From: Daejeonella sp.
Lineage (GTDB): Bacteria > Bacteroidota > Bacteroidia > Sphingobacteriales > Sphingobacteriaceae
Assembly: GCF_030695525.1 (NCBI RefSeq)
Contig: NZ_JAUYSS010000047.1
Coordinates: 124,001-188,000, forward strand
Reading direction: 5' to 3'
DNA: 64,000 nt
A program made the position numbers and the translations under genes. The notes beneath the pieces were generated by a model. The model saw only the letters and a list, made by a program, of their open reading frames with translations, did no database searches and was not told the DNA's origin. Positions 11,751-26,367 of the stretch are shown here, piece by piece; the first letter of the stretch is position 1, and every line of letters starts with the position of its first letter.

Positions 11751-12716
11751 TTAATCAAAAGTTACAATTACATTCCCCTTTTTCTTTCCACTCATAACAT
11801 ACTCAAAAGCATCACGGATTTCACTTATCGGGTATCTTTGGTCAATTAATGGCCTGAACTTATCTTTCTCAATCAGCTCATTGATATATGCCATACTACG
11901 TTCAATTGAGAAAGGAAGTGGAAATTTGACTTTCTTACCCTTCATTAAAGGTGCAAATAATGCTAATAATGGGTTTTGCCAGTAAGGGCCAAGTTCAGAA
12001 GAAACATAAATTGTATTGGGTTTCATGATCGGTTTGCATTTCCAAAATGTACTCTTGCCAACTGCATCAAATACAAAATCAAATTTTTCATTCAATTTTG
12101 TAAAATCTTCTTTGGTATAATCAATCACCATATCTGCACCCATTGATTCCAGAACAGGGATATAATCGGTTTCGCAAGTAACCGTCACATGTATACCTCG
12201 ATATTTCAAGAATTGTAAAGCCGCACTACCTATTGCTCCTGTTCCACCATTTAATAGTACTTTATCACCTTTCTTTAAAACTACTTTATCTAAAAAATAA
12301 AAAGCATAATGTGCACCCTCCAAACTTGCTGCTGCCTGTTCATATGTAATGTTCCCTGGTTTTTTTAAAATGGCTTTTTTCGTTGAAACACAAAAATAAG
12401 AAGCATGTGAACCAATTCCCTGATCAAAGAAACCATACACGTCATCACCAATATTGAATTTGTTAACGTCAACTCCTTTTGACACTACCACACCCGAAAA
12501 ATCAGTACCTGTGACTTTAAGCCTTGGTTCAAATAAGCCAGTGAATAATCTAATCGCCCATGGTCTTCCTGTAAGAACTCCACAATCAGATCGATTAACT
12601 GTAGTAGCTTTTACTTTTACCAATATCTCATCTTTTTGGGGAAAGGGAATATGGCTCGATGTCGTCAAATTTATAACATCTGGCGAGCCATATTTATTTC
12701 TTATTGATGCTTTCAT
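11751..12716 (-). CDS. NAD(P)-dependent MDR oxidoreductase (quinone-oxidoreductase-like)
   Basis: The 321-residue protein starts with the family's typical MKA-x-x-x-x-KYG-x-P-x-V and has the GroES-like fold (TVNRSDCGVLTGRP, GTDFSGVV, FNIGDDVYGF). A Rossmann domain follows with the motif NGGTGAIGSAALQ near 160-172. The C-terminus carries DQRYPISEIRDAFEYVMSGKKKGNVIVTF. Catalytic-zinc cysteine/histidine ligands are not obvious, so a zinc-independent NADPH:quinone/enone reductase is more likely than a true alcohol dehydrogenase. The ATG at 12716 is preferred over a TTG five codons earlier. Confidence 0.87.
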   Translation of the reverse strand: MKASIRNKYGSPDVINLTTSSHIPFPQKDEILVKVKATTVNRSDCGVLTGRPWAIRLFTGLFEPRLKVTGTDFSGVVVSKGVDVNKFNIGDDVYGFFDQGIGSHASYFCVSTKKAILKKPGNITYEQAAASLEGAHYAFYFLDKVVLKKGDKVLLNGGTGAIGSAALQFLKYRGIHVTVTCETDYIPVLESMGADMVIDYTKEDFTKLNEKFDFVFDAVGKSTFWKCKPIMKPNTIYVSSELGPYWQNPLLALFAPLMKGKKVKFPLPFSIERSMAYINELIEKDKFRPLIDQRYPISEIRDAFEYVMSGKKKGNVIVTFD

Positions 12717-12805
12717 TCTATTTTTCTTCAAATTAAATATAAGGCGTAGATATCAAAGAACCTGACTTCTTCTTCAGTCAAATGATAGCAATGAACTGCT
12801 TATCC

Positions 12806-13450
12806 CTAATCGATGATTCTATACGGGAAATTCCTGGCCACTTTCCTCATCATTCGCTCTACAAGATCTGTTGAAGATGCAATTACGTTCTCATTCATAG
12901 ACTTGTAAAATCTCCAGAGTAATTCGCCATCCGTGCCGTTATTGAGTGTCAATGTAAGCTTCCCGGTACCTGTTCTTCCCCCAGCTCCGCTTACAAGGAT
13001 CATCGTAGCAATGGCAAGGCCATCCGACTGTGTCTCCCTCATTTCAAATCTGCTGCCAAGAACAGCATCAACGCCTAAAGCGGCAGCTATTTCGGTTTTA
13101 GTCAACTTGTCGAGATTGCCTTCCATTCCCGCAGTTTTTAACCGGAGATTTGTCTCATCCACTGTCTGGATGCTTATCGGATATTCAATTGAACGTTTTA
13201 ACAGGTAGGTGTATATGCTACCCTGGATATTGGTTGACATCTTTTTCTCCTGTTCACGGTCGGCCTCGGGATTGAAGTTCTTCGGCTGCTTCCGGTTTGT
13301 GATCAAGACATCAGAAGGCAGGATGGCGATCGTTTTGTGGCTGGCAATTGCTGCCGGCAGATGAGCGCTTTTAAATACTTGCTTGCTTCCCTCAAATTGG
13401 GCGAAAGCTATAAAAGGGATGAAGAAAATTAAATTCAGTAATCGTTTCAT
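12806..13450 (-). CDS. Hypothetical secreted protein
   Basis: The 214-residue protein has a signal peptide (MKRLLNLIFFIPFIAFA). The mature part begins with a strand containing TIAILPSDVLIT, followed by a charged linker, then a region with TKTEIAAALGVDAVLGSRFEMRETQSDG and a glycine-rich stretch (VSGAGGRTGTGKLTLTLNNGTDGELLW). The order of a short beta strand, helix and an 'ALGVDAVL' motif recalls TolB-N/CsgG-like or GNA1162-like periplasmic lipoproteins, but there is no lipobox and I do not assign it. It stands between two MDR oxidoreductase genes on the same strand. Confidence 0.6.
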   Translation of the reverse strand: MKRLLNLIFFIPFIAFAQFEGSKQVFKSAHLPAAIASHKTIAILPSDVLITNRKQPKNFNPEADREQEKKMSTNIQGSIYTYLLKRSIEYPISIQTVDETNLRLKTAGMEGNLDKLTKTEIAAALGVDAVLGSRFEMRETQSDGLAIATMILVSGAGGRTGTGKLTLTLNNGTDGELLWRFYKSMNENVIASSTDLVERMMRKVARNFPYRIID

Positions 13451-13491
13451 GTGTTTGTTTTTTTTAACAATTTAAATTCTATTCGTGAATA

Positions 13492-14409
13492 TCATTCACA
13501 TATTTTTAGTACAACATTGCCTTTTTTTCTTTGTGTGTCAACGTATCTGTGTGCTTCAACTATTTCCGCCATTGTAAAAGTTCTGTCAATCGTAGCTTTA
13601 AAATCTCCTTTTTCAAACAACTCTTTTAATACCTTTAGTTGTTGTATGTTTTCGGAAGCATATCCTAAACAAACACTTGCATAAACACCGTTTTTGTTCA
13701 AGAGATTTTTATATTGTTTTTTACTGTATTTACCAATTGCGTCAAAGATTATATCAAACTTTTCTGACTGTCTTTTAAAGTCTTCCTTGTCATAATGAAC
13801 AATGTTATTAACTCCTAATTCGGCAACAAGTTTATGACCTTTAGAACTGCATACTGCTGTTATATTTGCATTATGATATTTGGCAATCTGTAGTGCAGCC
13901 GTTCCTACTGAACCTGTTGCCCCAATAATTAAAATTTTCGGGCTTGATTTTTCGGTAATCTTCGCTTTCCCTAAAAAATGAATAGCTGTTTGTCCACCAA
14001 ATATTATTGCAGCAGCTTCTTCGTATGTAGCATTTTTAGGCATTTCAATTACGTTGCTGTTTTGATTAACAACAATATATTCTGCATATGTACCGAAATT
14101 AAAACCTGTCATGCCGAATACTTTATCACCTACTTTTAACTTAGAAACCTTGTCTCCAGTAGTTTCAATAAACCCTGAAAAAACAGTTCCTAATATGGGT
14201 TTTCTTGGTTTTGAAATCCCAAATACCAAGCGCATAATTAACTTTCTAAATCCCTTTACATCAAGACTTCTTACCCTTACATCTCCGGAGTTGACCGCAG
14301 TAGCAACTATTCTGACAAGAATTTGATTGTCTTTGGGTTTTGGTTTAGAAACTTCCTGAATTTGCAAAACTTCAGGGGGTCCGTACTTCGTGCAAATAAC
14401 TGCCTTCAT
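13492..14409 (-). CDS. NADP-dependent MDR oxidoreductase (quinone-oxidoreductase-like), second copy
   Basis: The 305-residue protein resembles the gene at 11751 in layout: MKAVICTKYGPPEVLQIQEV at the start, GTVFSGFIETTGD, KVGDKVFGMTGF, then the cofactor-binding GATGSVGTAALQIAK and a C-terminus ATIDRTFTMAEIVEAHRYVDTQRKKGNVVLKI. The best substrates of such enzymes are quinones or enones, but specificity cannot be read here. The ATG at 14409 is preferred to the adjacent TTG at 14412. A 38-codon ORF (14414-14530) ends 4 bases before it, and palindrome-promoter site B lies upstream of both. Confidence 0.87.
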   Translation of the reverse strand: MKAVICTKYGPPEVLQIQEVSKPKPKDNQILVRIVATAVNSGDVRVRSLDVKGFRKLIMRLVFGISKPRKPILGTVFSGFIETTGDKVSKLKVGDKVFGMTGFNFGTYAEYIVVNQNSNVIEMPKNATYEEAAAIIFGGQTAIHFLGKAKITEKSSPKILIIGATGSVGTAALQIAKYHNANITAVCSSKGHKLVAELGVNNIVHYDKEDFKRQSEKFDIIFDAIGKYSKKQYKNLLNKNGVYASVCLGYASENIQQLKVLKELFEKGDFKATIDRTFTMAEIVEAHRYVDTQRKKGNVVLKICE

Positions 14410-14413
14410 CAAA

Positions 14414-14530
14414 TTATTGTGGTTTTAAAAATTTACCCAATACTGAAGGCCCGGCTGCCAGAAGAAGACTATGGCCGTCTATCATCAACCTGTTTAAGTT
14501 TAAGGTAAACAATAAAATTTTCTTTTGCAT
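14414..14530 (-). CDS. Possible 38-residue leader or remnant ORF ahead of the oxidoreductase
   Basis: The ORF begins with ATG about 23 bases after the predicted start of transcription from site B and ends four bases before the next gene. It reads as a short hydrophobic peptide (MQKKILLFTL, then LMIDGHSLLLAAGPSVLGKFLKPQ). It could be a small co-translated protein or the joined ends of a deleted membrane gene. There is no family assignment; support is positional only. Confidence 0.3.
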   Translation of the reverse strand: MQKKILLFTLNLNRLMIDGHSLLLAAGPSVLGKFLKPQ

Positions 14531-14558
14531 ATCAATACTACTTTTGTTAAATGATAAG

Positions 14559-14604
14559 CAAAGGTATATTGGCCAGATGCCATAACTCCTTGACTTGAGT
14601 TAAG
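14559..14604 (-). promoter_or_regulatory. Palindrome-promoter site B
   Basis: Element 14590-14604 (TTGACTTGAGTTAAG on the plus strand) is followed after 23 bp by the minus-strand -7 box TACCTTTG (14559-14566), an exact TAnnTTTG match. The sequence past the box (GCTTATCATTTAAC on the minus strand) is nearly the same as at site D. It drives toward the 38-codon ORF and the oxidoreductase at 13492-14409. Confidence 0.62.
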
Positions 14605-14627
14605 AAATGAACCTAAAACTTGCCTAT

Positions 14628-16190
14628 TTAATCAGCAAGCTGCACTCTCATTAAAGGACTACTTAAGAGACTATAAAGAACTTTTATATTTATGTGAAAA
14701 GTTGAAACTATCGATTCCGAATAGACTTTCAGCTCCTCTATTTTAGATTGGTCATAATATATTCCATTCATAACTACACCAAATATCTCTCTGGAATTGG
14801 CAATTTCCTCCAGGGGATTTTTATTCAGAATGACTAAATCGGCTATTTTTCCTGTTTCAATTGTTCCGTATTTCTTGTCTTCTCCGACGAATTTTGCAGG
14901 GATAATTGTTGCGCACTGTATTGCCTGTAAATTTGACAATCCACTTTTGGTTAAATCCTCCAGTTCATCGTGAATGCTAAAACCTGCAAAAACATACGAA
15001 TCTGTTACATCGGTACCTGTCATAATTGGGACACCTATTTCATTGGCTGTCGCAACCTGTTCTTTAGCTAAACTGTAAATGTCCCTACTTAAATTTTTTC
15101 CTTCAATCGATAAATTCCTTTTTCTGTTATTGTTAACATCACTTCCCCACAAAAACTTTCTTATTATATATGGGATATATTTTATGTTGGGATTATCAAT
15201 AAATGTAGAATCATGCGCATACGCCTCGAACTTGAGAGTCTGAAGAGTAGGCGTCCAATACGAGTTGTGCTCTCTCATCAACAGCATTAATCTGGATGCC
15301 ATTTCTGGATTATAATCTTTAACGATTGACTTTCTTGATTTTGAATAAAAAAGTTGCCAATTGGCTGAGGTCCGAAGGCTATCTGCACCAGGAAATGCTT
15401 CAGTCAGAAATAAACGCCCGTGCTCAAAACTTTTTTGGCCTAGTAAAATGGCATCTTCAAGACTGACAAATATTGGTTTATGGCCGGCAAGGTGCATTCC
15501 ATACTTTGGAGCCTTCAAAGCCAGATGCTTATAGATTTTGGCGGGGATTTGTTGATAAACTTTAATGAAATCCACCTTTTCATTTTTATAAAAATTTAAA
15601 AGAGAATCAACATCTTCAATCTGCTGAAGCTTAAAAAACTCCGGGAAACCATCGGGGACAGAAGCTGAGCCGTCCATTTGATAACTGCTCTGCAAAACAT
15701 ATCTTGGGTTTACTATTTTGTTCTGACTCAATTCCGCATTCCAAAACAATCTTTCATGGCTTCCGGCCCAATAATTATCCTTTCTATCCAGTTGGCCTGA
15801 CATGTCTCTGATTCCTGTAACGCCATTGGCTATATAAAGAGGATGATGAAGCGATTCTGAATATTTAACTGAATGCGTATGCATATCCCAGAGACCAGGA
15901 ATTAAAAATTTGTTCTTGCAATCAATAATTAAAGAATTAGACGATGGCTGTAAAACACCTGAAGTATCTATAGAAACAATAATGTTATCCTTTAAAAGGA
16001 GATCTCTGTGTTTGAGAATATTTCCAGATAAGACATCAATTACATTAATTGATTTTATAAAAACTGTATCATGCCTGGCAGGTGGAACTAATTGCAGTAT
16101 GGGCCACAAAATAGCCAAGACAACATCAAAAAATGAAAAAAGCAGAATGCCTGAAAAGATCTTGAATATCTTGAATGTTGCACTTCTCAT
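14628..16190 (-). CDS. Amidohydrolase-family protein, exported or membrane-anchored
   Basis: The 520-residue protein has a hydrophobic N-terminal segment (FSGILLFSFFDVVLAILWPIL) that is a signal anchor or signal peptide. It is followed by the amidohydrolase core: a strand carrying DLLLKDNIIVSID, then the metal-binding DMHTH (H-x-H), further candidate ligands in GMHLAGHK and SFEHGR, and the Asp in MTGTDVTDS near residue 400. The C-terminal beta part has GKIADLVILNKNPLEEI. This matches the imidazolonepropionase/prolidase-like periplasmic branch. The substrate is unknown. It ends only 24 bases beyond palindrome site B. Confidence 0.83.
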   Translation of the reverse strand: MRSATFKIFKIFSGILLFSFFDVVLAILWPILQLVPPARHDTVFIKSINVIDVLSGNILKHRDLLLKDNIIVSIDTSGVLQPSSNSLIIDCKNKFLIPGLWDMHTHSVKYSESLHHPLYIANGVTGIRDMSGQLDRKDNYWAGSHERLFWNAELSQNKIVNPRYVLQSSYQMDGSASVPDGFPEFFKLQQIEDVDSLLNFYKNEKVDFIKVYQQIPAKIYKHLALKAPKYGMHLAGHKPIFVSLEDAILLGQKSFEHGRLFLTEAFPGADSLRTSANWQLFYSKSRKSIVKDYNPEMASRLMLLMREHNSYWTPTLQTLKFEAYAHDSTFIDNPNIKYIPYIIRKFLWGSDVNNNRKRNLSIEGKNLSRDIYSLAKEQVATANEIGVPIMTGTDVTDSYVFAGFSIHDELEDLTKSGLSNLQAIQCATIIPAKFVGEDKKYGTIETGKIADLVILNKNPLEEIANSREIFGVVMNGIYYDQSKIEELKVYSESIVSTFHINIKVLYSLLSSPLMRVQLAD

Positions 16191-16200
16191 TACCCTATAA

Positions 16201-16701
16201 TTACTCTACACTAAAAGCAAACATAAAGTCGTTGGACCCAAAAAAATACTCCCCTGAATTTGGATTTTTTATAGTCAAATAATAATATCCTTCTTTAATT
16301 TTCTTTACGCCATAGTTTATCTTTTCAAATGAAGTAGTACTACTGGTGGCTTTAGCTTTTGAGGTGATAAAAACTCTTTGATCTTTCATTACTTCAAATT
16401 GAGCCAAATCAAACACGGATGTTGGATCTGTACCAGGTGTGACTTTAACTATAAATACTAATTCATCTTGTTTTGGAATTTTAATGTTTGATGAAATCCC
16501 GTTTAAGAAAAATCCACTCTCAGCACTAAATAAACCTTTTGCTTTTGCTATGGTATTGTATTGCGATTTCTCCAATTCTTTAATCTGTTTGGTTTTTGAA
16601 TCAAAGTATACAGGTTTATCAATAAACTCTGGTAAATTATTTTGTGCGTTTGTTATAAAACTGGAAAAAAGGATTGCTATTAAAAAAAGTGCGTACTTCA
16701 T
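16201..16701 (-). CDS. Hypothetical secreted protein
   Basis: The 166-residue protein has a signal peptide (MKYALFLIAILFSSFITNA, then QNN). The mature part is mostly predicted beta strand (VYFDSKTKQI, FFLNGISSNIKI, LVFIVKVTPGTDP, GYYYLTIKNPNSGEYFFGSNDFMFAFSVE), which suggests an all-beta surface or periplasmic domain. I recognise no family. It lies 10 bases upstream of the amidohydrolase on the same strand and is probably its operon partner. Confidence 0.6.
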   Translation of the reverse strand: MKYALFLIAILFSSFITNAQNNLPEFIDKPVYFDSKTKQIKELEKSQYNTIAKAKGLFSAESGFFLNGISSNIKIPKQDELVFIVKVTPGTDPTSVFDLAQFEVMKDQRVFITSKAKATSSTTSFEKINYGVKKIKEGYYYLTIKNPNSGEYFFGSNDFMFAFSVE

Positions 16702-16749
16702 GGATGGATTTATGGTTTAAGGATAAGCTAATTTTTTGTTCACAAATTT

Positions 16750-17160
16750 TCATGTTTCAATACGAGACCACTTCCATGCATAACGGATGATTAGACAAAG
16801 AAGAACGACTTCTACGACAGCGCCAAAGACCATGTGCATCCAGGCCTCTCCTGCCATATACACCGCGGCAATAATGATATTTGCCCAGCGATTGACTTTA
16901 GCCGGCAGGGCAACAGAGAGGAAAATCATCAGTGCCGGAATGGTCACGGAGGCGAGTGCTGCCAAATGAAATCCTTGCGTAATATCAAATACAAACACTC
17001 TCCCTTTCAGAATATCTTCTATCTTACCCGGCATATATAAGGCGAAATAATCAACATAGATATAAAGAAACATAAAGCTCGCCCACAGCGTAGCAAGCTT
17101 CAGTTTCAAACTGGCATTGATTTCTTCCAGTGTATTTTGTGTTGTTTTTTGTGAATTCAT
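16750..17160 (-). CDS. DUF6326-like small membrane protein
   Basis: The 136-residue protein has four predicted membrane helices: LWASFMFLYIYVDYFALYM, HLAALASVTIPALMIFLSVAL, WANIIIAAVYMAGEAWMHMVF and VVEVVLLCLIIRYAW. The KLATLWASFMFLYIYVDYFALY-like opening and the VNRWANIIIA segment fit the DUF6326 family, of unknown function. I use the ATG at 17160; a TTG at 17169 is also in frame. Palindrome-promoter site C lies about 45 bases upstream, followed by a Crp/Fnr relic. Confidence 0.75.
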   Translation of the reverse strand: MNSQKTTQNTLEEINASLKLKLATLWASFMFLYIYVDYFALYMPGKIEDILKGRVFVFDITQGFHLAALASVTIPALMIFLSVALPAKVNRWANIIIAAVYMAGEAWMHMVFGAVVEVVLLCLIIRYAWKWSRIET

Positions 17161-17203
17161 AACTATCAACTAAAAATTAAATCCAAATTAAATCCCGGTT
17201 AAG

Positions 17204-17248
17204 CAAAAGTAGATTTGAGGATACAACAACTTGTTCACTTAAGTTAAG
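17204..17248 (-). promoter_or_regulatory. Palindrome-promoter site C
   Basis: Element 17234-17248 (TTCACTTAAGTTAAG on the plus strand), a 22-bp spacer, then the minus-strand -7 box TACTTTTG (17204-17211), an exact TAnnTTTG match. The DUF6326-like start codon is 44 bases downstream. The Crp/Fnr relic at 17273-17395 sits directly behind it, as Crp genes do at sites A and E. Confidence 0.65.
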
Positions 17249-17272
17249 AAATAGGCTATAGCTAATTTTTCA

Positions 17273-17395
17273 AAGAATTCTTGCTCTTTGTCGGCTTGAT
17301 GATTTAGGTTTGATACCTAAATAGCCCGGTAATTAGTGCTTTGGAACACGCTGAATAAGATCAAGTTTTATAGGATTTGCAAATCTTCAGGGGAA
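17273..17395 (-). pseudogene. Relic of a Crp/Fnr regulator C-terminus
   Basis: Read on the minus strand, this stretch aligns by eye with the 3' end of the Crp gene at 21131-21604: DLIQRVPKH, then a TAA stop, then LPGYLGIKPKSSSRQRARIL, against DLIQRVPQHQLASYLGMLPQSLSRLRARII. The CAA glutamine codon has become TAA, and farther upstream a TAA and a frameshift interrupt the frame. Nucleotide similarity is also plain (for example GGAACACGCTGAATAAG in both). No upstream domain remains, so this is a dead gene fragment. Confidence 0.8.
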
Positions 17396-17419
17396 TTATG
17401 CTGGGTGCAAATAAAGCCT

Positions 17420-18058
17420 TCAATTTTTATTTTTGAAATGAAAATTATACCCAAAATTAAGCCCAGGTTGAATAAAGTAGTTAGGCCACTTACTCTCTAC
17501 TGCTTTAAAAGATTCAGGAACATTAGTTCTTACAGGCCAATAACTACATCCAATAGCTGGTTCAAAAAAGAACCGGTTTTTAAAAAACTTAAGCTGGTAA
17601 CCCAAATGGAAGTTTAAGTATAACGTGTATCCATTTCCGATTTTTTTATCATCCTCATCTAAATATTTTTCAAAAGCATTTAATGCATGAACAGATGCGA
17701 AGGCACCTTTCCAAAAAAAACGTTGGTATCCTACTGTTGGTGCAATGATGCGTCCATGTCCGGGATAATCTTCACCTGGTTTATCAAATGATGGTGATGA
17801 AAAAGGGAGACCTATTGGGAAATTATAAACTGATCTTTTAAAATCTAACGAAACAACATCTTTAGGGGTTATCCTATAACCAAAGTTTAATTGTACATAC
17901 TCAGGGCTGTTTTTTGTGTCAAAATTTCCCAACATAAACAATGAACTCCCCACAAAAAACTTTTTGTAAGTACTGTCTGGTTTGGTATCTTGTGCATTCA
18001 CCTGTAAACTACTTGCTAAAAATAAGGCAAGTCCAATCCATAAAATTTTCTTTTTCAT
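17420..18058 (-). CDS. Putative outer-membrane beta-barrel protein
   Basis: The 212-residue protein has a signal peptide (KKKILWIGLALFLASSLQVNA, cut before QDT). The rest alternates aromatic and polar residues in short strands (YVQLNFGYRITPKDVVSLDF, YTLYLNFHLGYQLKFF, FFFEPAIGCSYWPV) and ends in a strand with aromatic residues (LNFGYNFHFKN), the pattern of an 8-stranded outer-membrane barrel. Ligand and role are unknown. Site D gives it a promoter about 25 bases upstream, so it belongs to the palindrome-associated gene group. Confidence 0.7.
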   Translation of the reverse strand: MKKKILWIGLALFLASSLQVNAQDTKPDSTYKKFFVGSSLFMLGNFDTKNSPEYVQLNFGYRITPKDVVSLDFKRSVYNFPIGLPFSSPSFDKPGEDYPGHGRIIAPTVGYQRFFWKGAFASVHALNAFEKYLDEDDKKIGNGYTLYLNFHLGYQLKFFKNRFFFEPAIGCSYWPVRTNVPESFKAVESKWPNYFIQPGLNFGYNFHFKNKN

Positions 18059-18086
18059 TTCTTTTATTTTTATGTTAAACGATAAG

Positions 18087-18131
18087 CAAAAGTAGGTTGG
18101 AGAAATACAAAAACTCTTGACTTAAGTTAGG
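18087..18131 (-). promoter_or_regulatory. Palindrome-promoter site D
   Basis: Element 18117-18131 (TTGACTTAAGTTAGG on the plus strand), a 22-bp spacer, then the minus-strand -7 box TACTTTTG (18087-18094). The sequence past the box, GCTTATCGTTTAAC, nearly repeats that of site B. It drives the beta-barrel gene whose ATG is at 18058. Confidence 0.65.
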
Positions 18132-18164
18132 AAGTACGCTTTCGATACTCATCATTCGGGAAAA

Positions 18165-18405
18165 GGTTACTGAGGTCCCTCCCTCCGGAATGACGTCGTG
18201 CTTTTTGGAAAAAGGGACTTCTCCTCGTCTTACGTACGTTGATGGTTTTAAAAAACCAGGCAACTCGTCGAAGTAGATCCCGGTTTTATTGATGGTATAT
18301 TTCGACGAGCGATCTCGACTTTTGGTTTTACTCAGCAAGCGAAAGCGAGGAGAAATCTCCAGTCCCTATTATATTGCTCCGTCATTCCGACCGGAGGGAG
18401 TAACC
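18165..18405. repeat. Nested imperfect palindrome, about 240 bp, non-coding
   Basis: The outer arms are inverted copies: GGTTACT with CCTCCGGAATGACG at 18165-18195, and CGTCATTCC with CCGGAGGGAGTAACC at 18380-18405. Inner arms also pair: CTTCTCCTCG near 18220 with CGAGGAGAAATC near 18345, and ACTCGTCGAAG near 18267 with TTCGACGAG near 18300. The whole can fold into one long hairpin. It holds no convincing gene; an 87-codon open frame across it is a by-product. This and the flanking bases account for the gap between the barrel gene and the protease-like gene. Confidence 0.65.
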
Positions 18406-18467
18406 TCCATATAACCAGATTTAGGGCGAATCTAATTTGTTGAACAATGCTTTAGGGATTCTGATTT

Positions 18468-19493
18468 TTAATTCAATTCGCCGCTTATAAAAGGCCTGAA
18501 TTTATTTTTGTCAGATGTAGATAAGGTATTATAAAAAGCGTTAATTTTTTGTCTAATAAATTTCATTCTAACCACCCTTAGAATAGGTTCACCATTTAAC
18601 TGGGTTGCTCTTACCATAACACCAAGTAATTGTCCGTCAACATTAAATACTCCACCACCACTCATTCCTGCAACGGCGTGTATTTTAGCTATAAATTCTA
18701 CTTTGGAATCGTATGGAATCTGACCTTCTGCATCATTCTTTAACCTTAAAGATTCAATAATACTTTCGGCCTCTTTATCAGTACAAACTTTCCCTGTCGA
18801 TACAGCGCCGTTAGGGTACTTAATCTTATCCTGAGGATATCCAACAGCGACAACGTCTTCATCTGCCTGTACATCTGCCCAGGTTTGGAGGGCTTGTGTC
18901 CGGTTGTTTGGATCGTACATCTGCAATGGAATTGAAGTTTGAACCATCTTGGGATAATTGCCCAATCCATTATCTATAATTCGCTGGTTATCAATTACGC
19001 CTAAATAAAAATCGTCTCTGGGATATATAGTAGCATTGTTGGCGTTTGAAGGAATTAGAGGATGGTAAAAACCAAAATTTGCAACTAATTCATTTGATAG
19101 ATTAACATTTCCATTTATAGAGGGAATTCGTGAACCCAGAAATATCCCATTATTAATTTCTGATATTTTAATAAATTCCTCGCTACGTGAAAGCCAGGTG
19201 CTTATCCCGTAAACATGGTTAGCAGATACAAATAAGCCTAACTTATGGTCATTTTTTTTGCTCCAGATAACTTTGCTTCCCGGCCCATTTGTGCCAACAC
19301 TTCCCCTTACCATATTTAGTAAGTTCACAAAGCTTGGATCTGAATTTTTTACAGCATCTTCTATCTTAATTAGATTAGTTTTAATAATGCCAGTAGGAGG
19401 GGGTGGCGGAGGAACGGTGTTATTTTTTTTGCAACTGGTTGTGAAAATTAGAGTAATTAATAAAATGCATAGTGTAGAGAATAATTTTATCAT
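18468..19493 (-). CDS. Trypsin-like serine protease lipoprotein
   Basis: The 341-residue protein has a lipoprotein signal (LITLIFTTSC, lipidated Cys21), a proline-rich linker (PPPPPPT) and a trypsin-like domain. Candidate catalytic residues are His93 in FVSANHVYG, Asp160/161 in PRDDFYLGVI and Ser278 in AGMSGGGVFN. The order and spacing fit the chymotrypsin fold, and the GMSGGGVF sequence with following QLLGVMV is typical of HtrA-like or Glu-specific bacterial members. No PDZ domain is present. It is probably cell-envelope anchored. It follows a small lipoprotein gene with a 17-base gap. Confidence 0.75.
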   Translation of the reverse strand: MIKLFSTLCILLITLIFTTSCKKNNTVPPPPPPTGIIKTNLIKIEDAVKNSDPSFVNLLNMVRGSVGTNGPGSKVIWSKKNDHKLGLFVSANHVYGISTWLSRSEEFIKISEINNGIFLGSRIPSINGNVNLSNELVANFGFYHPLIPSNANNATIYPRDDFYLGVIDNQRIIDNGLGNYPKMVQTSIPLQMYDPNNRTQALQTWADVQADEDVVAVGYPQDKIKYPNGAVSTGKVCTDKEAESIIESLRLKNDAEGQIPYDSKVEFIAKIHAVAGMSGGGVFNVDGQLLGVMVRATQLNGEPILRVVRMKFIRQKINAFYNTLSTSDKNKFRPFISGELN

Positions 19494-19510
19494 ACTTAGA
19501 ATAATACGGA

Positions 19511-20014
19511 TTAATTAGACGATACAACCCCATTTGGATTCAACGATTTATCTTGTTTAATAGAACCATTAGCAATATGGAAGATAAAACCTGATGGATT
19601 GTGTGTTCCTAAAATTTTAGTTAAATTAACCACTACTACGAAGTTATCGGTAGTGCTGCAACCACTATTCTTAGATTCATGGTTCAATAAAAGCCTTACC
19701 TGTCCTGGGTATGAAAACATAATATAACCGTCCCAGATAATTTTGAATGCGTCCGATGAGCAGCCACCTTTTACGCTAATTTTTAAGACATCGCCTTCTC
19801 TTTTTAGACCTTCAATGGAAAAAGACTGATCAGTTCCAGATTCTCGTTTAGCTAATACGTCATTGTATTTGACAGCACTTTTTAATAGGTTAACCTCCAA
19901 AGCTTTGTCAATTTTATCATTAATTTCAGATTTTTCACAAGAGGCTAATGAAATGACCGTATAAACAGAAAGAAGAAGAAATGTAATGCTTCTAATTGGT
20001 AGTTGAGTTCTCAT
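19511..20014 (-). CDS. Hypothetical lipoprotein
   Basis: The 167-residue protein has a signal peptide with lipobox (VISLASC, Cys26). The mature part contains two paired-cysteine segments (KGGCSSDAFKIIWDG and NSGCSTTDNFVVVVNLTKIL) that could form a disulfide and is mostly beta strand. I do not recognise a family. It lies directly upstream of the trypsin-like lipoprotein in an apparent two-gene operon, so it could be a partner or substrate of that protease; this is inference. Confidence 0.65.
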   Translation of the reverse strand: MRTQLPIRSITFLLLSVYTVISLASCEKSEINDKIDKALEVNLLKSAVKYNDVLAKRESGTDQSFSIEGLKREGDVLKISVKGGCSSDAFKIIWDGYIMFSYPGQVRLLLNHESKNSGCSTTDNFVVVVNLTKILGTHNPSGFIFHIANGSIKQDKSLNPNGVVSSN

Positions 20015-20116
20015 AATATTCCTTGTTTAAAAATTGTGCTTTATATTTATAAGACGATGATTATTAAAGAAGTGCTACAGGAATTCAAAAAGATTGCGGT
20101 TTAAGCCTAAACACAA

Positions 20117-20659
20117 ATGGATTTTAAAACTGAAAGACTATATATTCGGCCTGTATCTATAAGCGATAAAGAATCAATTTTCGCCTATCGGTCGGATCCC
20201 GAAACCTATAAATATCTAAGTTTGATTCCCAAAACCGTGGATGAGGTTGAGGATTTTATTAAAAAGTCTTCCAGCTTACTCAATGTACCAGGGAGCTGGT
20301 TTCAATTTGTAATAATAGAGCAACTCCATAATAAGGTAATTGGAGACATAGGAATTCATTTTTTGGATACCAGTCCAGAGAATAAACAAGTCGAAATAGG
20401 GTATACTTTAGATAGAAATTATCGTGGGAAAGGATATGCCACCGAAGCCTTGACTGTCGTAGTAAATTATTTAATAACTGGCTTAAACAAACATAGAATA
20501 ACAGCGTCTATAGATCCAACTAATAAATCGTCGATTCAATTGATTGAGCGATTAGGTTTCAGAAAGGAAGCTCATTTTATCGAGAGCCTATATTTTCATG
20601 GGATGTGGGTAGACGATTTGATTTATGCCATTCTTGCAAAGGAATGGCGTAAAAAATAA
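20117..20659 (+). CDS. RimJ/RimL-type GNAT N-acetyltransferase
   Basis: The 180-residue protein begins with the RimJ/RimL pattern (TERLYIRPVSISDKESIFAYRSDPE) and has motif A as IGYTLDRNYRGKGYATEAL (about residues 95-113) and the HRITASIDPTNKSSIQLIERLGFRKEAHF motif B region. These enzymes acetylate N-terminal or other amines; the substrate is unknown. It is the only intact plus-strand gene in the accessory region. The ATG start is clear. Confidence 0.88.
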   Translation: MDFKTERLYIRPVSISDKESIFAYRSDPETYKYLSLIPKTVDEVEDFIKKSSSLLNVPGSWFQFVIIEQLHNKVIGDIGIHFLDTSPENKQVEIGYTLDRNYRGKGYATEALTVVVNYLITGLNKHRITASIDPTNKSSIQLIERLGFRKEAHFIESLYFHGMWVDDLIYAILAKEWRKK

Positions 20660-20706
20660 ATCACTTTAATCAAACAATATATCTGAGTTGCGAGTAAGTT
20701 CTAAAC

Positions 20707-20835
20707 TCACACAGAATACTGCTTTTTCAACTTCCGTGATCTCATTAATTTTATACGCTGTTGGTTAACTTTCTCCCATGCTGCATACGTTAGTAATGAG
20801 TAATAAAATGTGATTTCTAGTATTAATTTTTTCAT
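20707..20835 (-). CDS. Possible 42-residue small protein under site E
   Basis: The ORF starts with ATG about 55 bases after the predicted transcription start of site E. The product has a hydrophobic N-terminal half (MKKLILEITFYYSLLTYAAW) and a strongly basic tail (RIKLMRSRKLKKQYSV), like a short single-span membrane peptide or the truncated start of a membrane protein. No family is recognised. The rest of 20660-21006 shows nothing else apart from site E. Confidence 0.35.
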   Translation of the reverse strand: MKKLILEITFYYSLLTYAAWEKVNQQRIKLMRSRKLKKQYSV

Positions 20836-20893
20836 ATTTATTTCAAAAATGGTGAATCAGATTTTGGGTCAATTATTTCCCAAAAATCTTCAA

Positions 20894-20938
20894 CAAAATT
20901 AGAAACGATAAATTTCGAATCGGTTGACTTAAGTTAAG
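20894..20938 (-). promoter_or_regulatory. Palindrome-promoter site E
   Basis: Element 20924-20938 (TTGACTTAAGTTAAG on the plus strand), a 22-bp spacer, then the minus-strand -7 box TAATTTTG (20894-20901), an exact TAnnTTTG match. It drives the 42-codon ORF. The Crp/Fnr gene at 21131 lies behind it, separated by the GrpB fragment. Confidence 0.62.
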
Positions 20939-21006
20939 AAATGAACATCCCTCTTCAATATGATATAGCCTAAACAGCCCGTTAAATGTTTAACATTTTA
21001 TAAAAT

Positions 21007-21129
21007 ATGGTTCTTACAGAATACTCATCGAGTTGGATTAATGACTTCGAAGCTTTAAAAGGAGAACTCGAAATCGCATTAAACGGAATTGCATGTACTA
21101 TTGAACACGTTGGCAGTACATCAAGTTAA
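21007..21129 (+). pseudogene. N-terminal fragment of a GrpB-family (UPF0157) protein
   Basis: The 40 residues read MVLTEYSSSWINDFEAL, then a helix, then IEHVGSTSS and a stop. This is the start of a GrpB nucleotidyltransferase-like protein, whose core motif is IEHIGSTAVPGL. The family normally runs to about 170-180 residues, so more than three quarters is missing. The frame stops one base before the stop codon of the convergent Crp gene at 21131, which suggests a deletion joined the two genes here. Confidence 0.78.
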
Positions 21130-21130
21130 G

Positions 21131-21604
21131 TTAACAAGTTCGCTCTTTTTCAATAATTCTTGCTCTTAGCCGGCTTAAAGATTGAGGTAACATACCTAGA
21201 TAGCTCGCTAATTGGTGTTGTGGAACACGCTGAATAAGGTCTGGTCTTTTTTGTAGTAAGTTCAGGTACCGTTGTTCAGGGGAAGAATTCTTGAAAGTGT
21301 CAAAGTCTATTCGTTGTTTAGCTAAAAGTTCTTCGGATATCATTCTGCATAGGGTTTCTAACTTTGGAAATTTACTGTGGAATGCAGTGGTTTTTTCTTC
21401 ACCATCTAAAACATAATATGTCCGAATACAGCCTTTTATAACAAAGTAGCTATCTTTTGATTTTTGTCCTTCTTTGAGTAAAATAGTCCCCTTCTTATCA
21501 GAGCGGAATATTTCTGCCGACAGTGTTGCAGTCTTCTCATCATCTGTTAGCGAAACGTATTTTGCAGTAAAGTCAAATAGTATGTCTTGCATTTTATTTT
21601 CCAT
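21131..21604 (-). CDS. Crp/Fnr-family regulator with internal in-frame deletion (copy 3)
   Basis: The 157-residue product has the first part of the sensory beta-roll (KKGTILLKEGQKSKDSYFVIKGCIRTYYVLDGEEKTTAF) and the complete C-terminal HTH (QHQLASYLGMLPQSLSRLRARI). Compared with copy 1 at 11035, the two parts are joined directly: EEKTTAF runs into HSKFPKLETL where copy 1 has about 45 more residues. The junction is near 21379. The missing part is the second half of the ligand-binding domain and the start of the dimer helix, so ligand control is probably lost while DNA binding could remain. It could also be an inactive relic that happens to stay in frame. Confidence 0.75.
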   Translation of the reverse strand: MENKMQDILFDFTAKYVSLTDDEKTATLSAEIFRSDKKGTILLKEGQKSKDSYFVIKGCIRTYYVLDGEEKTTAFHSKFPKLETLCRMISEELLAKQRIDFDTFKNSSPEQRYLNLLQKRPDLIQRVPQHQLASYLGMLPQSLSRLRARIIEKERTC

Positions 21605-21763
21605 TGTTTCTGTCGTCTTACACTTGTTAGCGAGTTTTAGACGCAGGTCGGAAGATAAAATTACAAAAAGAATAGCGGTTAGCTAAAAAAACACCTAAAT
21701 GAGATACATATTTTCCATCAATCGATTTTCTGGATTACTATTCCTTTTGCCAAACCACAAAGG

Positions 21764-22056
21764 TTAATGAGAAATTTTGGTCCATTCTTTATATTCCATA
21801 TTATACATATCAAAGCCCTCTTGTCCCAGCTAATTTTACCTGTTGTGTTGTTGTCTGCAAAGTTAATTCCACCACATCCAACAATTTTTTGTTCAAATAG
21901 TAAAACATAATAAAGTTCCCTGTCCGTTTCCAAATATTTCCTTAAGTCCTCTTCTTAGTCAACTCCAAAATAATCTGGTGTATTTAGCCTAATTAGGTTG
22001 ATGACCTCATTTTTGTCCTTTGTTTCGTATTCTCGTATCGTAATTAAGTTGGTCAT
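21764..22056 (-). pseudogene. Broken GNAT acetyltransferase gene
   Basis: From the ATG at 22056 the frame reads TIREYETKDKNEVINLIRLNTPDYFGVD, a TAA stop (21955-21957), then EEDLRKYLETDRELYYVLL and IVGCGGINFADNNTTGKISWD. At about 21822 the frame shifts and resumes at GFDMYNMEYKEWTKISH, the typical end of the family. The central acetyl-CoA motif (normally MIHPxxQGKGxG and following helix) is missing. So the gene has both a nonsense mutation and an internal out-of-frame deletion. Confidence 0.78.
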
Positions 22057-22100
22057 AAGAAAATTCAACTGTTAAAGAATTGCGGCAAATAAAAATCGTT

Positions 22101-22928
22101 CTATTTAATAGTATAGGTTGTTATATCTGTCTCGGAGATGCTAAAATAACCCAGACAGTAGTTCGATTCTTTAGTTTGGTTGACTAAATTCCCTCTGATG
22201 GCTGATGATGGTGTAGGTTGAAAAGGTCCTCCTCCGCCGCCATTGGCTGTGCCGGCGAGTTTCCTGAAATAGTTAAAATACCTTTCTGATACACCGTTCA
22301 ACCTGATGTTGACAGGGTCATTTAGCTTTAGCTTACTATAACTAAAAAGTCCAAATGTCGTTCTACCCTCAAAAAATTTATCACTCGTAACTTCGATACT
22401 TGGAAAAGCCAGTGAAGGAGTAAAATAACTTAGTACAAAAAAATCTTCTTGATCAGGAGTGTCTTTAAAATGAACTTTTATCCCAAATTCATCTCTGTTT
22501 ATACCTAAGTCCGACCTTTGCTCTACTCTTTCTATTGGATTTACAGCAGTCAATTTCTCTTGCCCTCTGTAAGTTTCTCCGTTGTAAATGATGGTTAACA
22601 CGTAAGTTTCGTTAATTACAGGCAGAAAATTGATACAGGTATATTTACCCTTAATAGTAGGTTCTTCTATGAAATCAAATTGCTTATTGCTGCTGTTGGT
22701 TGCATAAACCGTTGCGCCAGATACTTTGGGAATTTCCTTGTTGAAATTACTGGTAGTTGTGCTTAAAATAACCGACTGATTTTTTCCATCGGTTCCTTTA
22801 ACCCAGCTCAATGCCGCGTCAACAACCAGGCGGGGCGACTCTGTATTTAATTTTACATCAATTACTTTCTCGCAACTACTATTTAAGAAAACAGCAAGTA
22901 GTATTAATATGGATAGTTTACTTTTCAT
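22101..22928 (-). CDS. DUF4249 lipoprotein (TonB-receptor partner)
   Basis: The 275-residue protein has a lipoprotein signal (LAVFLNSSC, Cys19) and the DUF4249 start CEKVIDVKLNTESPRLVVDAAL. Beta-rich repeats follow, with YVLTIIYNGETYRGQEKLTAV and the late NRDEFGIKVHFKDTPDQEDFF. DUF4249 genes in Bacteroidota regularly follow a TonB-dependent receptor, as here, with a four-base gap. The protein is probably an outer-membrane accessory; its ligand is unknown. Confidence 0.85.
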   Translation of the reverse strand: MKSKLSILILLAVFLNSSCEKVIDVKLNTESPRLVVDAALSWVKGTDGKNQSVILSTTTSNFNKEIPKVSGATVYATNSSNKQFDFIEEPTIKGKYTCINFLPVINETYVLTIIYNGETYRGQEKLTAVNPIERVEQRSDLGINRDEFGIKVHFKDTPDQEDFFVLSYFTPSLAFPSIEVTSDKFFEGRTTFGLFSYSKLKLNDPVNIRLNGVSERYFNYFRKLAGTANGGGGGPFQPTPSSAIRGNLVNQTKESNYCLGYFSISETDITTYTIK

Positions 22929-22932
22929 GATT

Positions 22933-25314
22933 TTAAAATTTGAAATTATAAGTTACGCTAGGTACTGCACCAAAAATAGAGAGTCTCTTTGCCTCATTCT
23001 TTCCTGTTTCTAAGTTTTGAACAAAAGAAATATTAGCGGCATTCTGTCTGTTATAAATGTTGTATATGCTAAAAACCCACTCCCCCTGCCAACCTCTTTG
23101 TTTGTTTCGTTTTGGGGTATAAGTTCCTGATACATCTAAGTGATGGTACAAGGGCAGGTTATCTTGATTTCTTAAGCCAAAGTTGGGCACTTCAATTCCC
23201 TGGTATTGATACTTACCCTGCGGAAATGTTACGGGTTGCCCGGATTGTAAGGCGAAAATAGAGCCGATACGCCACCTTTCGCTCCATTTAAAACTTGTCG
23301 TGATGGATACGTTGTGTAATTTATCTGCCGCAGATTTATACCACTGGCCATTATTAATTCCCGTTTCTGTGAGATTTCTGCCGGGTGTTTGCTGTTCAGA
23401 CCGTGACAAAGTGTAAGACAGCCAACCAGTTAAACGCCCGACATTCTTTCGTAACATCAGTTCTAAACCGTAAGCCCTACCTATGCCGTTTAAAACCACT
23501 TGCTCTATTGCTTCATTTGCAATTAGTTCTGTTCCATCAATATAATCTACTCTGTTATTTATGTTTTTATAAAAGCTTTCTATTTCCAGGGAGTAGTCAT
23601 CTTGTTTAAAGTTTTGGAAATAACCTATGGCGTATTGATTTAATGTTTGAGGTTTTAAAAACTGGTCGCTGGGTGCCCAAATATCTAGGGGAGTTGGCGA
23701 TTGTGTATTAGTTAGTAAGTGCAAATACTGCGACATCCTATTGTAACTGGCCTTTATCGCAATATTATCATCAAGTGCGTATGACAATCCGATACGGGGT
23801 TCCAAATTATCAAAACTCGCTATAGTTTCATTGCGCTTATAATTTTTAGAGCCGGTAGGCGTGGCCTTTTCGTAAATTTTTAATTCATTATTAAAGTTAA
23901 GGGCTTGATTGTTTGCGTAAGTAAACACTTCCTGCTGCCCTAAGCGGTAGAATAAGCTATAGCGCAAACCATAGTTTACTGTTAGTTTTTTGGTTAAATT
24001 TTGCTCAACATCCATGTAAACTGCTGGCTCTAAAGCATACTTTCTTGCCAGTTGCTCTTTATTGATTTGTGAAGTTGATGTTGTTGGACTTACAGTTCCC
24101 GGGTTGAAATCATAATACTGAGCATTGAGCCCGTAAGTGAGTTTTAAATTATTGTTGAAGTAGTGTTTGAAATCGTACTTCAAATTAAGGTTTTTAACGC
24201 TACTATCCCACTTAAAATCTGCAAGGGCAGTCTCTAAACCGTAATAATAATCACTATAGATAACGGAAAGGTTAGAGAACAATTTATCAGTGAATAGTTT
24301 GTTCCAGCGGGCGTTTATTACAGAATTTCCGTAGACATTGACGAAATCCTTATTCAGATTAAAAGCATCCCGCCCAAAATAACCCGATAAATACAAGTTG
24401 TTTTTAGGGTTTATCTTATAGCTAACTTTGGTATTTAAATCATAAAAATAAGCAGAACTTTGAATGTCTGTCAGTTTCAAAAACAAATGACCGTAAGAAC
24501 CTCGCCCTGCAAGCAAAAAAGAACCTTTCCCTTTGTCAACAGGCCCTTCTACCATTAATCTACTCGATACCAATCCAATGCCACCACTAAAATTTAGATC
24601 GTTTTTATTTCCTTCCTTTTGATAGATATCTAATACAGAAGACAAACGCCCCCCAAAACGAGCAGGAATGCCGCCTTTATAAAGTTTAATGTCATTAATG
24701 GCATCTGCGTTAAAGATTGAGAAGAAGCCAAATAAATGTGAGGAATTATAAATTGTTGCTTCATCCAAAAGAACGAGATTTTGATCAGCACTACCACCTC
24801 TCACATTAAAACCAGATTGTCCCTCCCCTGCATTGGTAACGCCGGGCAACTGTAGGATTGATTTCAGAACGTCAACTTCGCCTAATACCACCGGCATCTG
24901 TTTAATCTCTTTTACAGATAGTTTGTTGATGCTCATTTCAGGCCTTCTTATTTCTGCTATATTCTTATCCCCATTAACTACCACTTCTACTAATGATTGA
25001 GAATTTGATAACAAGCTGAAGTTCCTTTTTGCACTTTCTTCTAATTGAATTAAAGTGTCTTGAGATACATAGCCCAAATAACCAATCTTTAAATTATAAT
25101 TACCTTTTGGCAGGGTTAAAGAGTAAAAACCGTATTCGTTGGTAACAGTTCCGCTATTTATCTCTTTGATATAAATGCTTACTCCAATTAAAGATTCCGA
25201 AGATATTCTATCTGTTATCACACCACTAATTGTAACTTTTTCTTGCGCCATTAAAGTCAGTGCCGAAAGAAATAGTATGATAACCAGTTTAATTTTTTTT
25301 AAAGTTTGTCCCAT
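22933..25314 (-). CDS. TonB-dependent receptor with carboxypeptidase-like N-terminal domain
   Basis: The 793-residue outer-membrane protein has a signal peptide (KIKLVIILFLSALTLMAQ). A CarbopepD_reg-like domain (VTISGVITDRISSESLIGVSIYI, NEYGFYSLTLPKGNYNLKIGYLGY) leads to a plug domain (LPGVTNAGEGQSGFNVRGGSADQNLVLLDEATIYNSSHLFGFFS) and a 22-strand barrel ending in SVTYNFKF. It lacks the longer SusC organisation and its partner is DUF4249, not SusD. The substrate is unknown. I use the ATG at 25314; the upstream TTG at 25341 overlaps the -7 box of site F. Confidence 0.93.
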   Translation of the reverse strand: MGQTLKKIKLVIILFLSALTLMAQEKVTISGVITDRISSESLIGVSIYIKEINSGTVTNEYGFYSLTLPKGNYNLKIGYLGYVSQDTLIQLEESAKRNFSLLSNSQSLVEVVVNGDKNIAEIRRPEMSINKLSVKEIKQMPVVLGEVDVLKSILQLPGVTNAGEGQSGFNVRGGSADQNLVLLDEATIYNSSHLFGFFSIFNADAINDIKLYKGGIPARFGGRLSSVLDIYQKEGNKNDLNFSGGIGLVSSRLMVEGPVDKGKGSFLLAGRGSYGHLFLKLTDIQSSAYFYDLNTKVSYKINPKNNLYLSGYFGRDAFNLNKDFVNVYGNSVINARWNKLFTDKLFSNLSVIYSDYYYGLETALADFKWDSSVKNLNLKYDFKHYFNNNLKLTYGLNAQYYDFNPGTVSPTTSTSQINKEQLARKYALEPAVYMDVEQNLTKKLTVNYGLRYSLFYRLGQQEVFTYANNQALNFNNELKIYEKATPTGSKNYKRNETIASFDNLEPRIGLSYALDDNIAIKASYNRMSQYLHLLTNTQSPTPLDIWAPSDQFLKPQTLNQYAIGYFQNFKQDDYSLEIESFYKNINNRVDYIDGTELIANEAIEQVVLNGIGRAYGLELMLRKNVGRLTGWLSYTLSRSEQQTPGRNLTETGINNGQWYKSAADKLHNVSITTSFKWSERWRIGSIFALQSGQPVTFPQGKYQYQGIEVPNFGLRNQDNLPLYHHLDVSGTYTPKRNKQRGWQGEWVFSIYNIYNRQNAANISFVQNLETGKNEAKRLSIFGAVPSVTYNFKF

Positions 25315-25338
25315 TTTTGATTCTTTTTTTTGATGGGG

Positions 25339-25383
25339 CAAACCTAACTATTGCCTGAAGCAATAAAATTAACTTAAGTTAAG
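25339..25383 (-). promoter_or_regulatory. Palindrome-promoter site F
   Basis: Element 25369-25383 (TTAACTTAAGTTAAG on the plus strand) is the most symmetric copy. A 22-bp spacer and the minus-strand -7 box TAGGTTTG (25339-25346), an exact TAnnTTTG match, follow. The TonB-receptor ATG is 25 bases downstream, so the receptor/DUF4249 operon belongs to the group. Confidence 0.67.
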
Positions 25384-25432
25384 AAATGATTTGTGGGTAC
25401 AGATTAATAGCGGCCTTCGCAATTAAACTGTG

Positions 25433-25683
25433 CTATTGGTTTATCATTAATATGCGAAAGGAAAGCACTAATAAAAAGAATAAAAAACCCAGGCACACCC
25501 AAATCTTTCTCTGAGAAAACTCAGGATTATTATTCAGATAGTTTTGAGGGTTAGGTGAAAGATAAATTTTAGCTTGTTCCAATCCCATATAAGTAAAAAA
25601 GTACTTGCAAGTAGCATATTGAAATTAATCCATAAATTATTGCTGTATTCAAACGAGATTGTGATCATGAATATATTAATCAT
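25433..25683 (-). pseudogene. Possible decayed small membrane-protein gene under site G
   Basis: Two overlapping minus-strand frames look like pieces of a small membrane protein. Frame one (25534-25683, 49 codons) reads MINIFMITISF and later MLLASTFLLIWDW. Frame two (25433-25588, 51 codons) reads MGLEQAKIYLSPNPQNYLNN and then a membrane helix, IWVCLGFLFFLLVLSFRILM. A short third frame begins nearer to site G and stops after 22 codons. Either frame two is a real small gene or this is one gene broken by frameshifts. No family is recognised. Confidence 0.3.
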
Positions 25684-25754
25684 GATTATAAAAAGTGCTA
25701 TCGCCGCTATTTGCTATCGACGAAAACATAATTTTGAAGTGCATTACTATAATG

Positions 25755-25799
25755 AACAAGTAATTGCGATAAATTTTAAATGCCTACACTTAGGTTAAG
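25755..25799 (-). promoter_or_regulatory. Palindrome-promoter site G (degenerate)
   Basis: Element 25785-25799 (TACACTTAGGTTAAG on the plus strand) keeps the right half and the following GAAATG. The 22-bp spacer is kept but the -7 box has decayed to TACTTGTT (25755-25762). It faces the probable decayed membrane gene at 25433-25683. Confidence 0.45.
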
Positions 25800-26070
25800 A
25801 AATGGACATTTGTAGTCTGATAGTTGAAAATGTCGATTATGATGGACAGACCAGCATTGATTTTGAGTATTTTGCTACTATATGGTCAATTTATCAAAGT
25901 CACTAGTATTACTTTTAAGAAAAAGCAATTTTGAAAATGAATGGTTAAAGGTGTTAGGTGGGTAAAAATAAAATTTGATATATCAGGAGACTACAGCTGA
26001 AAACACATGGGAGCCCGCGGCGTAATCATCTTGCTGATTGGAGCTTGGATTGTCTGCCCTGATAACGTAA
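25800..26070. other. Intergenic stretch with no supported gene
   Basis: I find only short, unsupported frames here, including a hydrophobic plus-strand frame near 25830-25915 without family resemblance. No hairpin terminator or promoter is evident. It lies between the decayed site G gene and the truncated oxidoreductase. Confidence 0.5.
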
Positions 26071-26367
26071 TTAAAGTACCACAAGATCAATGGCCCGGTC
26101 CCCAACCTTGAAATGTGTTACATTGTTTCCCACTTCCTCCACGATACCTGCGAAATCTGCTCCCAGGATTTTATCCTTTGGTTTGAATAATCCAAAAGTG
26201 AATCGTGCAAAAAAGGGTTCGCCCCTCAGGATATGCCAGTCGGCGGGGTTAGCTGAGTTTGCTGCAACCTTAACCAGGATATGATCATCTTGTATCTTTG
26301 GCTTCTCTACTTCTTCTAATTGAAGTACTTCAGGGCCACCATATTTTGTTTTTGTAAAAGCTTTCAT
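26071..26367 (-). pseudogene. N-terminal fragment of an MDR oxidoreductase
   Basis: The 98 residues carry the GroES-like start of a quinone-oxidoreductase-like enzyme: MKAFTKTKYGGPEVLQLEEV, ANSANPADWHILRGEPFF, ILGADFAGIVEEVG and HFKVGDRA. The family then needs a Rossmann domain of about 200 residues, but here the frame ends after IDLVVL. It is a third broken or intact relative of the enzymes at 11751 and 13492 and complements the C-terminal fragment at 10361, although the two need not come from one gene. Confidence 0.8.

Follow-up and report, generated by a model that had tools for sequence, protein, structure and literature searches.

The FNR-type operator reads TTGAT-N4-ATCAA, and class II FNR sites consist of paired 5-bp halves separated by 4 bp. 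For the Crp/Fnr superfamily regulators of Bacteroidota there is a solved structure, 3dn7, a cyclic nucleotide binding regulatory protein with a sensor, a long helix and a C-terminal HTH in that order. Shortened Crp proteins have also been described: in Riemerella anatipestifer, the Crp protein crpR1 is reported to exist in short as well as full-length versions (PMC13277301). The short crpR1a has a CRP domain but no HTH, it is the reported ancestor of the longer forms, and its deletion is reported to change a phenotype. Here we characterize a Crp/Fnr-family gene of Daejeonella sp., which belongs to the same phylum. The two cases are alike in setting a short against a full Crp form, but our gene differs from crpR1a in having its sensor cut, its HTH kept and its selection relaxed. 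We take it to be, most likely, a known-family gene in decay.

We analysed a window of 64,000 nt (contig NZ_JAUYSS010000047.1, positions 124,001 to 188,000), within which the gene, called mini below, occupies positions 21131-21604 on the minus strand. Its open reading frame encodes 157 aa and runs from an ATG start, free of stops, to its terminus. We aligned the protein to 80 named homologues of 190-207 aa (L039-L118) and to 19 further rows (L119-L137). Where all 99 homologue rows (96 distinct) carry 43 residues, the mini protein carries 2, a net loss of 41 residues or 123 nt, and the reading frame is intact through the HTH. The homologues have the pattern F, 42 residues and SKFPK, while the mini protein reads F-H-SKFPK. 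The alignment and a codon comparison with the homologues locate the junction at codons F75-H76 (21377-21382, minus strand). The deletion is thus confirmed, much as a sequence-only reading of this DNA had described it: in frame within a Crp/Fnr-type ORF, with a junction near 21379, half of the sensor domain gone and the frame kept through the HTH. Its figure of about 45 missing residues was close, although somewhat above the measured net loss.

The sensor domain of the mini protein is incomplete by the same 41 residues relative to every homologue row, and its HTH is complete by alignment, although residue 138 has changed from I to M and residue 139 from K to L. A profile of the full-length subfamily aligns to 3dn7 over positions 1-187 of 193 (E 1.4e-29), and the order of sensor, long helix and C-terminal HTH is the same in both. 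Read off this profile alignment, the block that the mini protein lacks in comparison with 3dn7 corresponds to about residues 76-118 of that structure. From the family fold, we take the lost block to be the second half of the beta-roll, directly ahead of the long helix. The mini protein matches PF00027 only over profile positions 5-46 of 89 and, at 23.8 bits, below the cut-off of 27.5; another Crp/Fnr protein of the window, copy 1, likewise stays below that cut-off (21.8 bits) though it is full length. Against HTH_Crp_2, the two proteins score 14.2 and 14.6 bits, respectively (cut-off 27). AlphaFold models of the mini protein and of a full-length control were both poor (pLDDT of 58.0 and 53.2), and they were not used for the question of dimer formation.

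A short form that is simply the family's norm was ruled out, as none was found in the 80 named loci or among the matches listed from 400 genomes of the order. In this order-wide search, 24 genomes, the host's own included, match the mini protein at E ≤ 1e-20; among the matches listed, the homologues' open frames are 193-254 aa long, and the closest intact relatives within the order belong to the host's family. In genomes with two matches, the matches are interrupted around the position of the deletion.

The sequence-only reading had measured the deletion against copy 1, an intact, full-length Crp/Fnr protein encoded at 11035-11655 on the minus strand. This was the wrong reference, because copy 1 shares no more than about 37-45% identity with the mini protein and belongs to another subfamily, with homologues of its own in the family at 68-71% identity. 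The same two observations rule out copy 1 as the parent of the mini gene. Copy 1 is constrained, with an omega of 0.044 versus 0.089, and omega = 1 is rejected. We also searched the draft genome (73 contigs, 98.24% complete) for an intact crp gene of the mini gene's subfamily, and it was absent; the best other match is 45% identical.

We compared selection on the mini gene and its homologues with a two-ratio codon model (our own implementation, GY94 type, F3x4) applied to 12 sequences and 149 codons. The mini branch has an omega of 0.415 versus 0.070 for the background (LRT 21.0), and this main set excludes omega = 1 at the 5% level (LRT 4.36). When the 11 other tips were each taken as foreground in turn, 10 gave an LRT of 2.9 or less; the remaining tip, L122, has a very long branch and deviates significantly in the opposite direction (omega 0.017, LRT 17.9). 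The calculation was repeated on four random sets of 11 named homologues each, with the junction (residues 70-82) excluded. The mini omega was then 0.255, 0.288, 0.399 and 0.243 (LRT 8.2, 10.5, 15.1 and 5.4, respectively), and three of these sets again excluded omega = 1 at the 5% level (LRT 9.3, 9.7 and 11.2; 3.7 in the remaining set). Taken separately, the N half (residues 5-75) has an omega of 0.365 and the C half (residues 78-153, comprising the long helix and HTH) one of 0.457, both inseparable from 1 at the 5% level (LRT 3.1 and 1.3, respectively). Purifying selection on the mini gene is therefore relaxed relative to its homologues in both halves. Complete neutrality is rejected in most tests, which means that the mini branch was not neutral throughout. 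The tests fit a gene that functioned first and decayed later, but they also fit a weak continuing constraint.

These measurements bear on whether the 123-nt gap is absent from the organism and is an artefact of assembly or sequencing. The genome is a draft in 73 contigs, which leaves room for such an error, but the signal of relaxed selection lies outside the gap and persists without the junction codons, and several other broken genes surround the mini gene. We consider an artefact highly improbable.

Residue changes in the mini protein were counted alongside the codon analysis. It has 11 unique residues, 7 in its N half and 4 in its C half. As a distance-matched control, each homologue was compared only with others as distant from it as the mini protein's nearest relative is from the mini protein, and none of the 86 homologues reached 11 unique residues (maximum 7). 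The 60 positions at which 95% or more of the 99 homologues agree are all unchanged. At residue 139 in the HTH, where the mini protein has L, 79 of 86 homologues have K and none has L. A frameshift, stop or lost start was sought in the mini gene and none was found, the frame being open from ATG to stop. An open frame is weak evidence against decay, however, since only 5.6% of single substitutions create a stop and 42% of such frames survive 15 neutral substitutions, an estimate that counts substitutions only and no indels.

The sequence-only reading had proposed that the product, if expressed, could act as a competitor without ligand control. Stated fully, a working mini regulator would lack the ligand pocket but retain the dimer helix and the HTH; it would bind TTAAC-TTAA-GTGAA sites ligand-free and would either block the local promoters or drive them constitutively, in competition with copy 1. 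The kept HTH frame, the unaltered conserved positions and the rejection of omega = 1 in the main set and in three random sets all speak for such a protein. The C half, however, has an omega that is not below that of the N half, and the change at residue 139 of the HTH is one that no homologue shares. The short form was not found among the homologues searched, and no full-length sister copy was found in the genome. The relaxed selection in both halves, long helix and HTH included, together with more unique residues than in any distance-matched control and the lack of an intact gene of the same subfamily in the draft genome, leaves the competitor proposal unsupported, and we regard a working mini regulator as unlikely.

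The genes that accompany intact members of the subfamily are conserved. At all 86 loci (83 of them distinct), the gene that follows crp on its strand encodes an outer-membrane-like (OMP-like) protein or a DUF6326 protein. The OMP-like gene comes directly after crp in 82 loci, with a median gap of 92 nt and a gap above 200 nt in 3. In the other four loci (L041, L064, L078 and L118), DUF6326 directly follows crp at gaps of 101-208 nt with no OMP-like gene in between, so the composition of the module varies. Overall, 43 of the 86 loci have DUF6326 somewhere downstream of crp, a count taken with some loci sequences incomplete. The window retains both partners intact, with their order and shared strand preserved, at a distance of about 3 kb from the mini gene: the OMP-like gene at 17420-18058 (minus strand) and the DUF6326 gene at 16750-17169 (minus strand; PF19851, E 4e-10; likely ATG near 17160). 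The OMP-like gene was named by eye, as it matches no Pfam family above its cut-off, and the name DUF6326 is not mentioned in the open-licence literature that we searched.

Both partners remain under normal constraint. The OMP-like gene has an omega of 0.182 versus 0.143 (LRT 0.5) and the DUF6326 gene one of 0.190 versus 0.253 (LRT 0.28), and omega = 1 is rejected for each (LRT 19.5 and 9.1, respectively). Consequently, the relaxation is specific to the regulator and does not extend to its OMP-like and DUF6326 neighbours. We searched 19 other genomes of the genus and found neither partner gene, nor any crp close to this subfamily; at E ≤ 1e-14, the crp search matched only two of these genomes (G003 at 48% and G018 at 40% identity), over part of the protein. 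Across the order, the OMP-like gene occurs sporadically, in 16 of 400 genomes at E ≤ 1e-15, the host's own included. The absence of the module from the genus and its sporadic presence in the order suggest that the host lineage acquired it horizontally.

The 3′ remnant of another crp gene from this subfamily, with an in-frame stop, was located by tblastn with the 80 homologues at 17261-17362 on the minus strand (extending to 17231 by one query). It sits between the OMP-like and DUF6326 genes and is 82% identical to the mini gene at the DNA level over 97 nt. This remnant shows that the host once had two crp copies, either of which may have been the former neighbour of the OMP-like gene. Its presence fits the loci elsewhere in which crp occurs in tandem: a second crp match of this kind is found in 7 of 86 loci, and one further locus has a crp match in the other direction. 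Separately, in locus L149 a different crp gene is divergent from the OMP-like gene, and a short crp 3′ match (2209-2265; about 18 residues, E 2.5e-4) lies upstream of that OMP-like gene. Here too the module may have lost a crp gene.

The regulator's predicted operator was noticed as a repeat in the window and then recognised as conserved in the spacer between crp and the OMP-like gene. The spacer consensus is TTTCTTAACTTAAGTGAACGA, with the core TTAAC-TTAA-GTGAA. In 78 of 80 crp-OMP spacers (L039-L118) the element scores at least 15 of 21, compared to 19 of 2961 random stretches from the same loci. A TAnnTTTG box follows the element in 60 of these 78 spacers, 59 times at exactly 30 nt from the dyad centre, and 2.7% of shuffled segments contain such a box. 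TAnnTTTG is the Bacteroides -7 consensus (PMC4747536). The element also lies upstream of the OMP-like gene in 16 of 18 cases from other genomes, at 72-79 nt from the point where the match begins; three of these 16 places are already counted among the 80 spacers, and the two misses are second OMP-like copies in tandem. Seven of the 16 are loci in which crp is divergent (L147-L153).

Seven copies or near-copies of the element fall inside 15 kb of the window, all on the minus strand, and five of them carry a TAnnTTTG box at 29-30 nt. The promoters of the two partner genes share the core 29-30 nt before the box: the putative operator upstream of the OMP-like gene reads CTAAC-TTAA-GTCAA (18117-18130) and that upstream of DUF6326 reads TTAAC-TTAA-GTGAA (17234-17247), with the box 29 nt from the centre in each. 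Three more putative operators precede an ADH-type oxidoreductase gene at 13492-14412 (TTAAC-TCAA-GTCAA, 14590-14603, box at 30 nt), a 42-codon ORF at 20710-20835 (TTAAC-TTAA-GTCAA, 20924-20937, box at 29 nt) and a gene at 22933-25341 named by eye as TonB-receptor-like (TTAAC-TTAA-GTTAA, 25369-25382, box at 29 nt). The remaining two are operator-like sequences with no properly spaced box, one downstream of copy 1 (TTAAC-CTAA-GTTAA, 10903-10916) and a weaker one at 25787-25802.

The five properly spaced sites would provide a working mini regulator with places to bind. In a further version of that proposal, which appears decidedly improbable to us, nature has made the mini protein a Crp blind to its ligand: it would still bind the elements clustered in these 15 kb and so hold a small regulon, gained horizontally and otherwise under copy 1, permanently braked or permanently switched on.

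An integron- or transposon-like repeat was considered for the clustered TTAAGTTAAG, as all six close copies in the genome occur in 15 kb on one strand. This reading was dropped because some ninety loci elsewhere have the element and TAnnTTTG ahead of their OMP-like gene. Within the host's own genome, a search for a 15-base form that allowed a single mismatch finds six places, each of them inside the window (10905-25802) and in one orientation, compared to three for a backward control. All three exact places in the genome fall in the window. Loose matches, here to a 14-base pattern, are not enriched over the control: TTAACTTAAGTNAA with one mismatch is found 9 + 15 times in the genome and the control 23 + 22 times. 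Local clustering is confined to exact or near-exact sites. There are at least four exact places of the element in the 19 other genus members. In 12 genomes that carry the module, 14 of 16 exact places, among the matches listed, lie at the locus; two module genomes (G082 and G089) have no exact place among the matches listed.

The 5-4-5 dyad core of the element has the form of an FNR site, and its position is that of class II activator sites. From its centre to the TA of TAnnTTTG is about 30 nt, which places it near -41 relative to a transcription start that we infer from the box. Like class II FNR sites, the element is built of 5-bp halves set 4 bp apart. Unlike TTGAT-N4-ATCAA, it has the half-sites TTAAC and GTGAA and is followed by a -7 box of the Bacteroides kind. 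The element is probably an FNR-type, class II operator of this Crp subfamily, as judged from its geometry and conservation. No paper on the operator or the operon was found in the open-licence literature searched.

The promoter element might instead belong to another factor, either a different regulator or RNA polymerase, with crp merely travelling along; this would be compatible with the other readings of the mini gene. Near-copies beside copy 1 and before other genes of the window speak for this reading. The dyad geometry of the element, however, is that of the FNR type, and the element is nearly invariant across distant hosts. It is also concentrated at the locus in the 12 module genomes, among the matches listed there, and it is found with the OMP-like gene at loci of either crp orientation, co-directional or divergent. 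We hold a different factor to be unlikely.

The upstream regions of crp itself gave a different result. In 80 stretches of 300 nt, read on both strands, the element reaches 15 of 21 in 3 and never scores higher, and crp autoregulation through an upstream operator was rejected on this count. No perfect 5-bp dyad recurs there in more than two stretches (of 80 or fewer), a search that an imperfect element would escape.

Taken together, we favour the reading that the mini gene is a local activator in decay whose targets and sites remain, perhaps served now by copy 1, and we assign it a probability of roughly 0.72. We infer that this Crp protein uses the element as its operator and works as an activator. 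The host lineage would have gained a module of crp, the outer-membrane-like protein and DUF6326, in which the intact Crp-family protein would bind TTAAC-TTAA-GTGAA about 41 nt ahead of the transcription start and switch on the OMP-like and DUF6326 genes in response to a ligand. In the host, the crp gene now sits about 3 kb from its partners and has lost the 123 nt for the second half of the sensor's beta-roll, while the partner genes and predicted operators have stayed intact. The mini protein, if made, would have no ligand pocket and probably no working sensor. The target promoters would now be served by another Crp protein or be active without an activator.

The deletion, the relaxed selection, the excess of unique residues and the broken neighbours support decay; the open frame with its start codon, the unchanged conserved positions and the frequent rejection of omega = 1 count against it. 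The first candidate for a takeover of the promoters would be copy 1, which is intact, constrained and 6 kb from the OMP-like gene, and that it has taken them over is our guess. Its tie to the element is weak, because the candidate element (pattern TTAACNNAAGT) occurs within 400 nt downstream in only one of six close copy 1 homologues (L162).

As a gene, mini is an ordinary case of decay. More useful is the Bacteroidota Crp subfamily to which it belongs, with its fixed partners and near-invariant predicted operator. For this Crp/Fnr group, for which we found no assigned role, the conserved putative regulon offers a testable target. The host genome amounts to a natural experiment, with a failing regulator whose targets and predicted sites persist.

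The neighbourhood of the mini gene is itself damaged. A 5′ fragment of grpB (21007-21129, plus strand; PF04229, E 2.7e-6, profile positions 3-36 of 159), with 40 codons and then a stop, abuts the 3′ end of crp. It is truncated exactly at the end of the crp gene, and the break falls within a TTAAGTTAA stretch that resembles the promoter element. On the other side, an apparent GNAT acetyltransferase pseudogene (21718-22056, minus strand), recognised from its frame translation, has an in-frame stop at about 21955 and matches PF00583 below the cut-off (E 0.13). Between the mini gene and the OMP-like gene lie an intact GNAT gene (PF13302), a trypsin-like gene (PF13365) and a gene at 19511-20014 that has no match in Pfam. 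Genes appear to have been gained and lost repeatedly in the 15-kb zone that holds the elements. Pieces of ADH-type oxidoreductase genes, C-terminal and N-terminal, lie at 10364-10603 and 26074-26367, and the zone is flanked by these ADH-type pieces together with an N-terminal fragment of a DUF4386 gene (10364-10835 and 26074-26367).
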